A DNA stretch of 64,000 nucleotides from Acidobacteriota bacterium (GTDB lineage Bacteria > Acidobacteriota > Terriglobia > Terriglobales > Acidobacteriaceae), in assembly GCA_031296105.1 (NCBI GenBank), contig JARLGJ010000048.1, forward strand, positions 1-64,000. The letters are read 5' to 3'. Shown piece by piece: positions 37,666 to 44,048 of this stretch. Made by a program: the position numbers and the translations under genes. Positions within the stretch are counted from its first letter, which is position 1. Each line of letters begins with the position of its first letter. The notes under the pieces were generated by a model. That model did no database searches, was not told the origin of the DNA, and saw only the letters and a list, made by a program, of their open reading frames with translations.

Positions 37666-38505
37666 TCATTTTCCTCTGCGCGCCATGATGCGCACGTCTT
37701 CCGGAGTTTTGCCCTGTTCGCGCAGCGTGCGCAGTCCCAGCGCGTCGTGCCGCTTGGCCAGCCGCTCGCCGCGCTCGTCGCACAATAATGCGCAGTGGAA
37801 ATATTCCGGCGTCGATAATCCCAGTGCCCGCTGCAAAAGAATCTGCCGCGCCGTGGAGCGCAGCAAATCCGCGCCGCGCACCACTTCCGTGATGCGCATT
37901 GCCGCGTCGTCCACCACCACCGCCAGTTGATAGGCCGGCACATCTTCACGCCGCCAGACGACGAAGTCGCCGAAGTCCTCTCCGGCTACAAAACTTTGCG
38001 CACCCAGCGCGCCATCCACAAACGCAATGCGCTCGCCGTCCGGCACGCGGAAGCGCCAGTTCACTCCGCCCGGAGCCGCGGCCTCCAGCGTTTTGCCGCG
38101 GCAGGTGCCGGGATAGACCGGCTCATCGTGATCGTCGTGCGGCGCGCTGGCCGTCTCCGCCAGCTCCCGGCGCGAGCAACTGCACGGATAAATCCATCCG
38201 CCCGCCAGCAGCCTGCGCCACGCCTCCAGGTAGAACTCCCGCCGCTGGCTCTGCGCGTAGGGAGCAAACGGACCGCCTACGTCCGGCCCCTCCTGCCAGC
38301 GAATGCCATACCACGCGAGATCCTCGAACATGGCCCGCGCATACTGCGGGCGGCAGCGCCGGGCGTCCAGATCCTCATTGCGGAAGACCAGCGTGCCGCG
38401 GCGCTCGAGGGCACGCTCATAGGCCGTCCAGAAGGTGCGCGCGTGCCCCAGGTGCATATACCCGGTGGGCGAGGGCGCAATTCTTCCGCGATAATCGAGG
38501 CTCAT
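37666..38505 (-). CDS. gluQ: Glutamyl-Q tRNA(Asp) synthetase (279 aa)
   Basis: Attaches glutamate to the queuosine base in the tRNA-Asp anticodon. It is a truncated GluRS catalytic domain: GRIAPSPTGYMHLGHARTFW (HIGH motif HLGH), zinc cysteines in YPCSCSRRE and YPGTCRGK, and a KMSKS-like loop RLAKRHDALGL. It lacks the anticodon-binding domain of true GluRS, which fixes the assignment. ATG 38505 begins the conserved region; the frame extends 13 codons upstream without similarity. Confidence 0.93.
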   Translation of the reverse strand: MSLDYRGRIAPSPTGYMHLGHARTFWTAYERALERRGTLVFRNEDLDARRCRPQYARAMFEDLAWYGIRWQEGPDVGGPFAPYAQSQRREFYLEAWRRLLAGGWIYPCSCSRRELAETASAPHDDHDEPVYPGTCRGKTLEAAAPGGVNWRFRVPDGERIAFVDGALGAQSFVAGEDFGDFVVWRREDVPAYQLAVVVDDAAMRITEVVRGADLLRSTARQILLQRALGLSTPEYFHCALLCDERGERLAKRHDALGLRTLREQGKTPEDVRIMARRGK

Positions 38506-38600
38506 GCGTGTATTGTAAGACGCGCCCGGCGTCGCGGCACGCAAGGAGAAAGATGCGCAAACCGCGCGAAACTTGCTACGCTCTTAGCGGAGCGTACATC

Positions 38601-40529: not shown

Positions 40530-41155
40530 AAGTTGCACAGGTTGCGAAAACCCGGAGGTCTGGAGGTTTCGGACGTTTCGGAGGTTTCGAAAGGCAAGAG
40601 CAAAACCCCTCTCCCGGTGTGCCCCAGGTTCGCGAGCAACGCGAGCTAACCTGGGTACCTACACCGGCGGAGTCTCCCAGGTTAGCCGCGCCTGCGGCGC
40701 GCCGAACCCTTCGGCAAGCTCAGGGCAGGCTCTGGGGCACATCATTCTTCTTTTGCGATACCCCCTACCCCCCTGTTTTTTGTCAAAATCATCAAAACAA
40801 ACAGGTTGCCGGAGGTTAATCTGGCAAAATCTTGATTCTGCTGGAGTTAGAGGGAAAATATTGAAAACAAAAGGTTTCGGAGGTTCGGGAGGTTTCGGAC
40901 GTTGCGGAGAAACAGCCCCCTGGGCCTGAACCTTGGTCCCTATATCCAGAATAGCAAATTTGAGGGGGGTATCCCCTCACCTTGAGGTGGGTTTATTTCT
41001 CCTTTCGATTGATAGAGATGGCGGGAAACTTCGGGTTTTGGGGGCTTGACAGCGATTTTCCCTGCGCCGCGGCCCTCCCCATCTTGGCGCGTTTGGCATA
41101 GAGATTGGCGCTCTCTGCATATCGCAAACCACTCTCCTGCATCTAACGTAGGACC
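40530..41155. repeat. Repeat-rich intergenic region: three families plus a MITE-like element
   Basis: No gene seen. In order: imperfect GGTTTCGGA units (40557-40590); a CCCAGGTT-family copy in plus orientation (40619-40655); a second copy in minus orientation (40677-40740) split by CCTTCGGCAAGCTCAGGGC-like sequence; an element bounded by GATACCCCC (40757) and GGGGGTATC (to 40973) with a further GGTTTCGGA run inside; then the adh leader. A TTGACA at 41046 has no good -10. Confidence 0.75.
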
Positions 41156-42211
41156 ATGTACAACGCCAAAGCATATTCCGCCGCCAGTGCAACATCGCCG
41201 CTAGCTTCCTCTGTGATCGCGCGGCGCGATCCAACCGATACGGACGTACAGATCGAGATTCTCTTCTGCGGCATTTGTCACTCGGACCTGCACACGGTGC
41301 GCGACGAGTGGCACAGCGTGATGCCCACGGTGTATCCCTGCGTGCCCGGCCATGAGATTGTAGGCCGCGTCGTGAAGGTGGGCGCGAAGGTCACAAAGTT
41401 CAAGGCCGGCGACCTGGCCGGCGTGGGCTGCCTGGTGGATTCCGACGGAACCTGCCCGGAGTGCCAAGCTGGGCTGGAGCAGTTCTGCGGGCACGCCACC
41501 TTTACCTACAACGCGCCGGACAAACACACCGGCAAGGTGACCTACGGCGGCTACTCCGACAGCGTGGTGGTGGACGAGCGCTTTGTGCTGAGCGTGCCGA
41601 CGAACCTGAACCTGGCCGGAGCGGCGCCGCTGCTGTGCGCCGGCATTACCACCTACTCGCCCATGCGCCACTGGGGCGCGGGACCGGGCAAGAAGGTGGG
41701 CGTTGTCGGCCTGGGCGGACTGGGACACATGGGCGTGAAGTTTGCCCACGCGTTGGGCGCGCACACGGTGGTGTTCACCACCTCTCCCAACAAGGTGGAA
41801 GACGCTCTGCGGCTGGGCGCGGACGAAGTGGTGCTGTCGAAGGATGCCAGCCAGATGCAGAAGCACCTGGGCAGCTTCGACTTCATTCTGGACGCGGTCA
41901 GCGCGCAGCATGACATCAACGCCTACCTCATGCTGCTGAAGCGCGACGGCAACATCACGCTGGTGGGCGCCCCCGAGCAGCCGCTGCCGGTGGGAGCGTT
42001 CCCGCTGATCATGGGCCGCCGCAGCCTGTCGGGCTCGCCCATTGGCGGCATTGCGGAGACCCAGGAAATGCTGGATTTCTGCGGCAAGCACAACATTACC
42101 TCCGACGTGGAAGTGATTCCCATGCAGAAAGTCAACGAAGCCTACAGCCGCTTGCTGAAGCAGGATGTGAAGTACCGCTTCTCCATCGACATGGCTTCGC
42201 TCAGGGCCTAA
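41156..42211 (+). CDS. Zinc-type NAD(P)-dependent alcohol dehydrogenase, YahK/CAD family (351 aa)
   Basis: Likely NADPH-dependent aldehyde reductase. Catalytic zinc site: C38 (FCGICHSDLH), H66-E67 (VPGHEIVG) and a late Cys in LLCAGITTYSP. The nucleotide fold is VGVVGLGGLGHMGVKFAHALGAH. The structural zinc loop reads VDSDGTCPECQAGLEQFC: three cysteines (100, 103, 111), with Asp 97 where the first Cys of this family usually stands. The whole length resembles E. coli YahK, including GGIAETQEMLDFC and DVKYRFSID. It is the first gene of a plus-strand operon with an AraC-type regulator and a cupin lyase. Confidence 0.93.
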   Translation: MYNAKAYSAASATSPLASSVIARRDPTDTDVQIEILFCGICHSDLHTVRDEWHSVMPTVYPCVPGHEIVGRVVKVGAKVTKFKAGDLAGVGCLVDSDGTCPECQAGLEQFCGHATFTYNAPDKHTGKVTYGGYSDSVVVDERFVLSVPTNLNLAGAAPLLCAGITTYSPMRHWGAGPGKKVGVVGLGGLGHMGVKFAHALGAHTVVFTTSPNKVEDALRLGADEVVLSKDASQMQKHLGSFDFILDAVSAQHDINAYLMLLKRDGNITLVGAPEQPLPVGAFPLIMGRRSLSGSPIGGIAETQEMLDFCGKHNITSDVEVIPMQKVNEAYSRLLKQDVKYRFSIDMASLRA

Positions 42212-42213
42212 TC

Positions 42214-43230
42214 ATGAATAAATTGTTCCGTGTCTCGGGGAGACACCTGGCAAAGCTGGAAGATCTGGGAATTCCGCCCACCGCCGTGCTGCGGCGGGCG
42301 GGACTTCCCGCGGAGCTGGCCGGCCAGCCGCGGCTGATGCTGTGCACCAACGACCTGTTCAAGCTCTGGAAAGCCATGGGCGAACTTGCGCCCGATCCCA
42401 ACGTAGGACTGTTGATGGGCGGCGAGATGCGCATGGAGTACCAGTCGCCCACGGCGCTGGCCGCGCTCTCTTCGGAGAACTTCGGCGAGGCCGTGCAGCG
42501 CATGGCGCGCTACAAGCTGCTGACCTGCCCGGAGGAGATCCTTTCGCAGGTGGACGGCAACGAGTGGAGCATTCAGTTCCGCTGGCTGCTGGCCGGTGAA
42601 GTGGAGCCGCAACCTTTAAACGACTGCTGCTTTGCCTGGGTTCTGGCCGTGGCCAGGCTGGGCACCGGCACGCGCCTGTCTCCGCTGCGGGTGGAGTATC
42701 GCCAACCGCGCGGCGAGTTGCAATCCCTGGAGCGCTACTTTGGCTGCCCGGTGGAGACGGCGGGCACGCGCAACGCCATCGTCTTCCGCGCCACGGATGC
42801 GGCGCGTCCTTTTGTGACGCGCAACGCCGAGCTGCTGGGCACGCTGGCTCCGCAACTGGAGGCCGAGTTGAAGGCGCAGCCGCGCGAGGAGGAAAGCTTC
42901 TCCGAGCGGGTGCGGCGCACGGTGCAGGAAAAGCTGACCGGGCGGCGTCCGGCGATTGAAGAGGTGGCACGCACGCTGCACATCAGCTCGCGCACCCTGC
43001 AACGCAAATTGCAGGAGGCGGGATCGAGCTACCAGAGAGTGCTGGAAGAATCGCGCCACCAACTGGCGCGGCACTACCTGAACAACTCCGCGCTGGAGTT
43101 GAGCGAGGCGGCCTACCTGCTGGGCTACGAGGACGCCAGCAGCTTTGTAAGGGCCTTCCGCACCTGGGAGGGCGTGCCCCCGGCGAGGTGGAGAGAGCAG
43201 CAGCGGTCACTGGCCACAATTGCAGGATAA
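42214..43230 (+). CDS. AraC-family transcriptional regulator with N-terminal arabinose-binding-like domain (338 aa)
   Basis: The N-terminal part (residues 1-210) has the layout of the Arabinose_bd domain of OruR/ArgR-type AraC proteins (LEDLGIPPTAVLRRAGLP, LLMGGEMRMEYQSPTALAALSSENFGEAVQRMARY). The C-terminal part has two helix-turn-helix units: IEEVARTLHISSRTLQRKLQEAGSSYQRVLEESRHQLARHYL, then SEAAYLLGYEDASSFVRAFRTWEGVPPARWR. The gene begins two bases after the adh stop and precedes the cupin by 31 bases, so it is probably the local regulator of the operon. The effector is unknown. Confidence 0.92.
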   Translation: MNKLFRVSGRHLAKLEDLGIPPTAVLRRAGLPAELAGQPRLMLCTNDLFKLWKAMGELAPDPNVGLLMGGEMRMEYQSPTALAALSSENFGEAVQRMARYKLLTCPEEILSQVDGNEWSIQFRWLLAGEVEPQPLNDCCFAWVLAVARLGTGTRLSPLRVEYRQPRGELQSLERYFGCPVETAGTRNAIVFRATDAARPFVTRNAELLGTLAPQLEAELKAQPREEESFSERVRRTVQEKLTGRRPAIEEVARTLHISSRTLQRKLQEAGSSYQRVLEESRHQLARHYLNNSALELSEAAYLLGYEDASSFVRAFRTWEGVPPARWREQQRSLATIAG

Positions 43231-43261
43231 GAAGAATCATGAACAATAAGGAGCTTCCGGC

Positions 43262-43657
43262 ATGGAGATAAAACGGGTAGGGACAACGGCTTCCATCAAA
43301 GGTCCGGCGGAGTGGTTCACCGGCGCGGTGCGGATGGATGGACTGATGCGGGCGCCGGAGCCGGCGCGGGTGAACGGCGCCAGCGTCACGTTTGAACCCG
43401 GTGCGCGGACGGCGTGGCATACGCATCCGCTGGGACAGACGCTGATCGTCACCGCGGGTTGCGGCTGGGCGCAGCGCGAAGGCGGTCCGGTGGAGGAGAT
43501 ACATCCCGGCGACGTGGTATGGTTTGCGCCGCAGGAAAAGCATTGGCACGGTGCCACTCCCACGACAGGCATGACGCACATCGCCATTCAGGAGCAGCTC
43601 AACGGCAAGGCCGTGGATTGGCTGGAACACGTGAGCGACGAAGAATACCGGCGGTAG
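43262..43657 (+). CDS. Cupin-fold manganese hydroxynitrile lyase-like protein (131 aa)
   Basis: Single cupin domain closely matching, in length and residues, the acidobacterial hydroxynitrile lyase GtHNL of Granulicella tundricola, which splits cyanohydrins to aldehyde and HCN. The metal ligands known for that enzyme fall at identical numbers: H53, H55, Q59 and H94 ([17 protein letters not shown]). The active-site positions A40, V42, H106 and Q110 also agree. AAGGAGC precedes the ATG. The comparison is from memory of the family. The biological role of these lyases is unsettled, so aldehyde/cyanohydrin handling with the adjacent dehydrogenase is inference. Confidence 0.88.
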
Positions 43658-43676
43658 AAAATTTTGCCGCTACGCC

Positions 43677-43714
43677 AAAGGCCCTGCGCGATGTGCGCGG
43701 GGCCTTTTGTTTTG
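43677..43714 (+). terminator. Rho-independent terminator after the cupin gene
   Basis: Stem AAAGGCCC / GGGCCTTT with an inner TGCGCG-ATG-TGCGCG-like arm (43677-43707), then TTTTGTTTTGG. It closes the adh-araC-cupin operon. Confidence 0.88.
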
Positions 43715-43763
43715 GTGCAGAGAACGCTGCGCTACCCTGGGTAGGCCTGAATACGGTGACGTT

Positions 43764-43921
43764 TGTCAGGGCACGACTTCAGTCGTGCCACCAGGCGAGT
43801 GCGAAACGTCGCGGCTTCAGCCGCCGAGGGGACGTCGCAAGAACAAAAAAGCGCACCCTCCGTGGCTGAAGCCACTGAGTATAGGCTGCTCTTTCGGCAC
43901 GGCTGAAGCCGTGCCCTGACA
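43764..43921. repeat. MITE/BIME-like element with 26-base inverted ends
   Basis: Both ends carry the same 26-base hairpin unit in opposite orientation (TGTCAGGGCACG...CGTGCC at 43764-43789 and GGCACG...CGTGCCCTGACA at 43896-43921). Inside are GCGGCTTCAGCCGC (43811-43824) and GTGGCTGAAGCCAC (43862-43875). No frame of note. 43922-44048 shows nothing further. Confidence 0.8.
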
Positions 43922-44048
43922 AAACCATCTCAGATTCACGTTTTCCCGCAGCCTGAGATTCCGCCTGACAAAGCAACTTTCCATCTAGTTATTCCCGTGA
44001 CATGTTCGGTCTCCGTGGAATAGATCTCGCGACCTGTTCAGTGCTGCG

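Follow-up and report, generated by a model that had tools for sequence, protein, structure and literature searches.

The stretch of acidobacterial DNA analyzed here (the window; 64,000 nucleotides) is contig 5 of a 3.45-Mb genome in 74 contigs, which carries one cupin gene. This cupin is the last of three genes on the plus strand, which begin with a YahK-like zinc alcohol dehydrogenase/aldehyde reductase of 351 amino acids (ADH; 41156 to 42211), recognized from its open reading frame (ORF), domains, and nearest structures. An AraC-family regulator of 338 amino acids with PF12625 and HTH_18 domains follows after 2 nt (42214 to 43230; ORF and domain search), and 31 nt further lies the GtHNL-type cupin of 131 amino acids (43262 to 43657), identified by ORF, alignment, and family score. 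The motif AAGGAG (43248 to 43253, plus strand), read from the sequence, probably serves the cupin gene as its ribosome-binding site. Downstream, at 43677 to 43707 on the same strand, folding gave a rho-independent terminator hairpin of 14 pairs followed by TGTTTT; the folding energy of 43660 to 43720 was −32.5 kcal/mol (z, −4.7), and none of 200 shuffles was equally stable. A first-pass annotation had proposed this gene order, the 2- and 31-base gaps, and a strong terminator, all of which were borne out by the ORFs and the fold.

Other features flank the operon. Downstream, 43762 to 43923 holds nested inverted repeats, REP-like or a small insertion, with 28-nt arms (43762 to 43789 and 43896 to 43923, 93% complementary) and an 18-nt pair inside. 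Upstream, between 40559 and 40909, a 9-nt repeat of the GGTTTCGGA type occurs in five copies, arranged in two clusters ca. 300 nt apart. The minus-strand ORF at 37666 to 38544 is presumably a glutamyl-Q tRNA(Asp) synthetase gene, which it resembles.

The solved structure closest to the ADH was E. coli YahK (1uuf), with full-length similarity (446 bits over residues 4 to 349), while the score against the Ahr (YjgB) profile NF047908, 309.9 bits, fell below the curated cut-off of 470. The ADH is thus closer to YahK, from which it differs in having Asp in place of the Cys of the VDSC motif. Among 33 ADH orthologues (L149 to L188 and L299 to L318), Asp followed VDS in 25 and Cys in 2, and the pattern was unmatched in 6; we take this to be a likely structural-zinc position. 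The first-pass annotation had called the enzyme NADPH-type, which is probably correct given that its closest relative, YahK, is reported to be an aldehyde reductase with a strong preference for NADPH that converts many aldehydes and, in the same account, no ketones (PMC3684718); NAD use by YahK is described in another paper (PMC11397123).

The cupin aligned with GtHNL (4bif), for which crystal structures exist, with 108 of 131 residues identical and no gaps (82%). The metal ligands H53, H55, Q59, and H94 and the active-site residues A40, V42, H96, H106, and Q110 are all identical, so that the alignment confirmed the equal length and the eight conserved positions claimed earlier (A40, V42, H53, H55, Q59, H94, H106, and Q110). 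With 204.2 bits it also passed the cut-off of 140 for the NCBIfam family NF049940, “(R)-mandelonitrile lyase.” In fold family, length, and active-site residues the protein therefore resembles the bacterial cupin hydroxynitrile lyases GtHNL and AcHNL, although its own lyase activity would be a prediction from this likeness, and it sits in an operon, whereas the GtHNL gene of G. tundricola is solitary. Across relatives, H53 and Q59 were kept in all 52 operon-linked cupins and all 65 others, and Q110 in 47/52 and 61/65, respectively; the active-site residues did not differ between operon-linked (n = 52) and other (n = 65) cupins.

Cupin hydroxynitrile lyases have been studied and engineered as catalysts. 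In vitro, GtHNL, AcHNL, and their mutants are reported to accept cyanide as well as nitromethane for addition to aldehydes (PMC8097096), while for ketones no cyanide addition by GtHNL was reported (PMC5413884). We read this combination of cyanohydrin and nitroaldol activity as carbonyl-adduct catalysis, whatever the natural substrate. The first-pass annotation had proposed that the lyase releases or traps an aldehyde, which the ADH reduces. On this route the cupin would be a true hydroxynitrile lyase in the cell, cleaving cyanohydrins (cyanogenic plants being one conceivable source) or capturing cyanide on aldehydes. The 82% identity to GtHNL with every named active-site residue kept, the curated family score, and the reported reduction of benzaldehyde-like aldehydes by YahK-type enzymes in E. 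coli (PMC3684718) all speak for such a route. We nevertheless consider it unlikely, partly because good activity was reported to have been obtained by engineering A40, V42, and Q110 (PMC8097096), which hints that these native residues, kept in the window, are perhaps not tuned for the lyase reaction, and partly because of the gene contexts described below.

The nearest solved relatives of the regulator were 5chh and VirS (8rcx). A comparable cluster is E. coli YqhC-yqhD-dkgA, in which an AraC-family activator likewise lies beside an alcohol-dehydrogenase-type reductase and an aldo-keto reductase (AKR), and in which YqhC is reported to raise yqhD-dkgA expression when aldehydes are present. We rejected an identification of the regulator as YqhC, since it has PF12625 in place of AraC_N (PF06719) and aligns only weakly with that protein (22.7 bits). 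The two systems also differ in that the window regulator is the second gene of its operon, the reductases come from different families (a YahK-like ADH and an AKR13-like AKR, described below), and a cupin is added.

Among 150 genomes of the same family, with adjacency counted by eye from coordinates, we found 30 close ADH orthologues (76% identity or more). Twelve were within ca. 50 nt of a window-type regulator, 17 within 5 kb of a cupin (G017 and G124 with partial cupin matches), and 24 beside one or the other; in the next 80 ADH rows (54 to 73%), one was beside a cupin (G116) and one beside a regulator (G038). This enrichment (17/30 versus 1/80) argues against the cupin being a passenger, co-transcribed by chance and unrelated to the reductases, an explanation that we regard as improbable and to which we return below. 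The order ADH-AraC-cupin of the window recurred in G103, of the same genus, and ADH-AraC-AKR-cupin was found in G019, G039, G195, G249, and, with one extra ORF, G096. Together, the same three genes in G103 and the four-gene order in other genera rule out an arrangement peculiar to the strain, and the conserved adjacency that the first pass had proposed to look for in relatives does extend beyond it. Further variants were AraC-AKR-cupin (G050, G066, and G206), ADH-AraC-tautomerase-cupin (G270), and ADH-AraC without an adjoining cupin (G046, where the downstream side ends at a contig end, G141, G007, G117, G098, G133, G109, and G038). In another family of the class, G453 has SDR-second ADH-cupin-tautomerase-AraC, and G448 has ADH-partial cupin-AraC. 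These maps derive from simple ORF picking, which makes unlabelled neighbours and some starts (e.g., L157) unreliable. Among 44 loci chosen for holding the regulator, a reductase gene lay within 4 kb in 40, and the cupin in 15, being absent from the other 29. ADH-AraC is the repeated unit in relatives, and the cupin is optional.

The tautomerase, SDR, DUF2255, and second ADH type seen in some operons would suit a catabolic regulon that lets the cell grow on plant-derived alcohols and aldehydes, aromatic or other, with the cupin and tautomerase acting on intermediates, and so would the presence of plant cinnamyl and geraniol dehydrogenases among the ADH relatives. We judge this rather unlikely, as the gene maps show neither a recurring oxidizing step, such as an aldehyde dehydrogenase or ring dioxygenase, nor a recurring transporter, and reductive enzymes predominate.

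Upstream of the ADH genes that precede the regulator, the pattern TGGCG-N5-TGCAT-N6-TGGCG-N5-TGCAT stands out. In the window it occupies 41085 to 41120 (plus strand) as two direct repeats with a period of 21 bp and one mismatch, predicted from sequence conservation to be the operator of the AraC protein. The first pass had noted neither this site nor the AKR gene that several relatives have between regulator and cupin. The site was the sole match in the window at ≤3 mismatches; shuffled windows held a mean of 0.06 matches, with one in 6 of 100 shuffles. Where the ADH is followed by the regulator, the operator was present within 4 mismatches in 12 of 13 genes, and in the thirteenth (L157) the start was mis-called and the site is perfect. 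By the same threshold it was found before 2 of 25 ADH genes not followed by the regulator (G021, whose regulator is located elsewhere in the genome, and G029, in which we found no regulator orthologue), against 1 of 5,987 random 300-nt stretches. At 38 of the 44 regulator loci a site was accepted; the six without one include L167 (G106), with a site just past the 260-nt limit, and L163, at a contig end.

The position of the operator is fixed as well. Its repeat ends 34 to 35 nt before the ATG in 23 ADH genes, and 20 of these 23 have a TAnnnT hexamer at positions −12 to −7 relative to the start codon (TAACGT in the window, 41144 to 41149, plus strand). Since a −10 box would be expected at this distance from a transcript start at the ATG itself, a leaderless mRNA is predicted. 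An operator abutting the −35 region is the arrangement of class II activation, and AraC-type activators bind two direct repeats with a period of ca. 21 bp next to −35, as in araI and Pm. The window has both features, an AraC helix-turn-helix domain and a conserved direct repeat beside the promoter, and shares the repeat geometry of araI and Pm, while the TGGCG-N5-TGCAT sequence and the fixed 34 to 35 nt to the start codon are its own.

At ≤2 mismatches, 40 genomes of the family gave 27 operator matches versus 2 for the reversed pattern. Such a match was present in 20 of the 25 regulator-bearing genomes, being absent at this threshold from the other 5, and in 1 of the 15 without the regulator; the operator had been defined on genomes overlapping this set. 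The 27 include probable chance matches with no family gene adjoining (G137, G039 C4, and G141 C4), and of the two in G050 one reads the first repeat with a shift of 21 bases. Three-mismatch matches that do not adjoin a family gene are best considered noise, as they are about as frequent as for the reversed pattern.

A further test at ≤2 mismatches used 45 new genomes. Within the family, 13 of the 14 genomes with the regulator had a match, which in 12 lies at the operon of the regulator itself; the match of G195 lies away from its regulator, and its ADH has a 3-mismatch site. The new genomes without a regulator match had an operator in 3 of 17 cases: in G055 the site precedes an ADH, in G179 it is probably a chance match, and in G075 it is an ADH promoter, preceding the first ca. 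90 ADH codons and then an RHS-like repeat protein. In this last locus (L301, 3616 to 5952), the operator and first ADH codons are joined to the RHS-like protein in one open frame, which may reflect capture of the promoter, disruption of the operon, or a junction made in assembly. G323, with a regulator relative of 37% identity, had no match.

Outside the family, 3 of 13 genomes with the regulator matched, two at the operon (G420 and G555), and the remaining 11 had no match at the regulator's operon at ≤2 mismatches; the match of G570, like that of G195, lies away from its regulator. Several loci from these families have sites with 3 to 4 mismatches in which the last half-site is TGCTAGTG, while those of G557 and G466 lack even such sites. 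Two loci from other families of the class (L318, 5218 to 9035, and L314, 5388 to 7857) have TGCTAGTG as the last half-site and a regulator of 48 to 50% identity; regulator and site may possibly be changing together.

In the 3.45-Mb genome of the window, the pattern occurred twice at ≤3 mismatches, and the reversed pattern once. The second site (C6:49686-49721, 2 mismatches) lies on another contig, upstream of an AKR gene whose start codon is 141 nt away, and TAGAGT follows it with the spacing seen for the −10 boxes of the ADH genes. This AKR, with perakine reductase and AKR13B2 as its nearest solved relatives, was the only AKR match of the genome at E ≤ 1e−60. The operator copy before it suggests that the AKR missing from the window operon sits elsewhere under the same switch. 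At the same cut-off, no AKR was found in G103 or in G046. G132 has one AKR (70%), yet neither a regulator orthologue nor an operator site.

Operator sites also accompany cupin operons that are separate from the regulator locus. In G021, the regulator on contig 12 is divergent from an AKR, with one site each, and contig 48 carries ADH-AKR-cupin with its own operator site; in G038, AKR-cupin with a site is on contig 40 and the regulators are on contigs 9 and 52. A site in G106 is followed by a run of reductase genes with the cupin last. At the loci L220 and L221, regulator and AKR are divergent and each has its own operator copy in between. The control by the AraC protein proposed in the first pass thus gains support from a conserved predicted operator that is also found before the AKR of the same genome and the unlinked cupin operons of G021 and G038, although it remains a sequence-based prediction. 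The passenger explanation, in turn, does not sit well with cupin operons that carry the operator at a distance from the regulator.

For the contexts of the cupin across phyla, we surveyed the best 80 of at least 595 confirmed cupin loci. Within 3.5 kb of the cupin, these 80 had an AKR in at least 29, a YahK-like ADH in at least 9, a LysR regulator in at least 10, a YqhC-like AraC_N regulator in at least 8, and the window-type regulator in none; these counts are lower bounds, as some loci are on short contigs. With looser clustering, 32 of 81 loci had an AKR and 14 an ADH. Cases of reductase and cupin together came from Acidobacteriota, Pseudomonadota, Planctomycetota, Verrucomicrobiota, Chloroflexota, and Armatimonadota, and a co-oriented ADH or AKR no more than 2.5 kb away, found in at least 29 of these best 80 of at least 595 loci, is a further point against a mere passenger. 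A second arrangement had a divergent YqhC-like regulator, with 35% identity to E. coli YqhC over 290 amino acids, and ADH-AKR-cupin (e.g., L170 and L040). As for the lyase route, no nitrilase, nitrile hydratase, or rhodanese was among the 25 Pfam families listed for 70 of the 96 unlabelled neighbours at the 80 loci (41 further Pfam families of those neighbours lie outside the 25).

The characterized GtHNL gene has no such operon, which also weighs against that route. In G263, which we take to be G. tundricola, the gene with a 100% match to GtHNL stands alone between what are presumably an ScpB-like gene and a pseudouridine-synthase-like gene, and the genome had no regulator match at E ≤ 1e−40 and no operator; at the loci of seven further close GtHNL relatives (L252 to L258), neither an ADH or AKR nor the regulator was found over 16 kb. 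This solitary gene refutes the idea that the window context holds for all cupin lyases. Within the family, G098, G133, G117, and G141 have the cupin elsewhere, with no operator site at ≤2 mismatches. Many cupins, GtHNL included, are therefore apart from any ADH or AKR, as the passenger explanation would have it, and the 31 changes of context (four labels) required by a tree of 116 cupins also favor that explanation; with shuffled labels the figure was 48.0. From this tree, the contexts are clustered yet appear to have moved many times. A single origin of the regulator-linked cupins was tentatively rejected, since the starred branches force at least 4 changes of this label, although in an alignment of 131 columns and with 51 of 112 inner branches open.

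We therefore favor, as the probable explanation, a small carbonyl-reductase regulon of the AraC type with this operon at its core. It would probably disarm reactive aldehydes, and the cupin would have joined it repeatedly but not always. On our best reading, it would work like E. coli YqhC-yqhD-dkgA, with an AraC regulator of an unrelated type. The AraC protein would bind the repeat at 41085 to 41120, abutting the −35 region, and activate rather than repress the promoter, with a transcript probably starting at the ADH ATG; by way of the second repeat copy it would also control the AKR on the other contig. The trigger would most likely be a reactive aldehyde or related electrophile, which the ADH and AKR would reduce with NAD(P)H, while the cupin may remove or convert a carbonyl compound or adduct on which these two enzymes act poorly. 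The mechanism is firm for the reductases and uncertain for the cupin and its substrate. The regulon would serve defense and not catabolism; a report that yqhD protects E. coli from glutaraldehyde and yahK does not (PMC8262776) counts against the explanation.

A more tentative extension, for which we see perhaps one chance in three, is that GtHNL-type cupins are inducible carbonyl-stress enzymes that naturally make, break, or rearrange an adduct of a reactive aldehyde or ketoaldehyde, with hydroxynitrile lyase activity as a side reaction, and that PF12625-type and YqhC-like regulators separately brought them under the control of aldehydes. Among open-access titles and the beginnings of abstracts, we found no account of how cupin lyases function in the cell or in which gene contexts they occur, which is weak evidence of absence given that the subscription literature lies mostly outside. 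The operon would offer a testable cellular setting for an enzyme known mainly as a laboratory catalyst, and the natural function of cupin lyases could be addressed with a named operator, co-regulated reductases, and, as controls, relatives in which the cupin lies outside the regulon. The regulator and its operator are, in addition, a candidate aldehyde biosensor.
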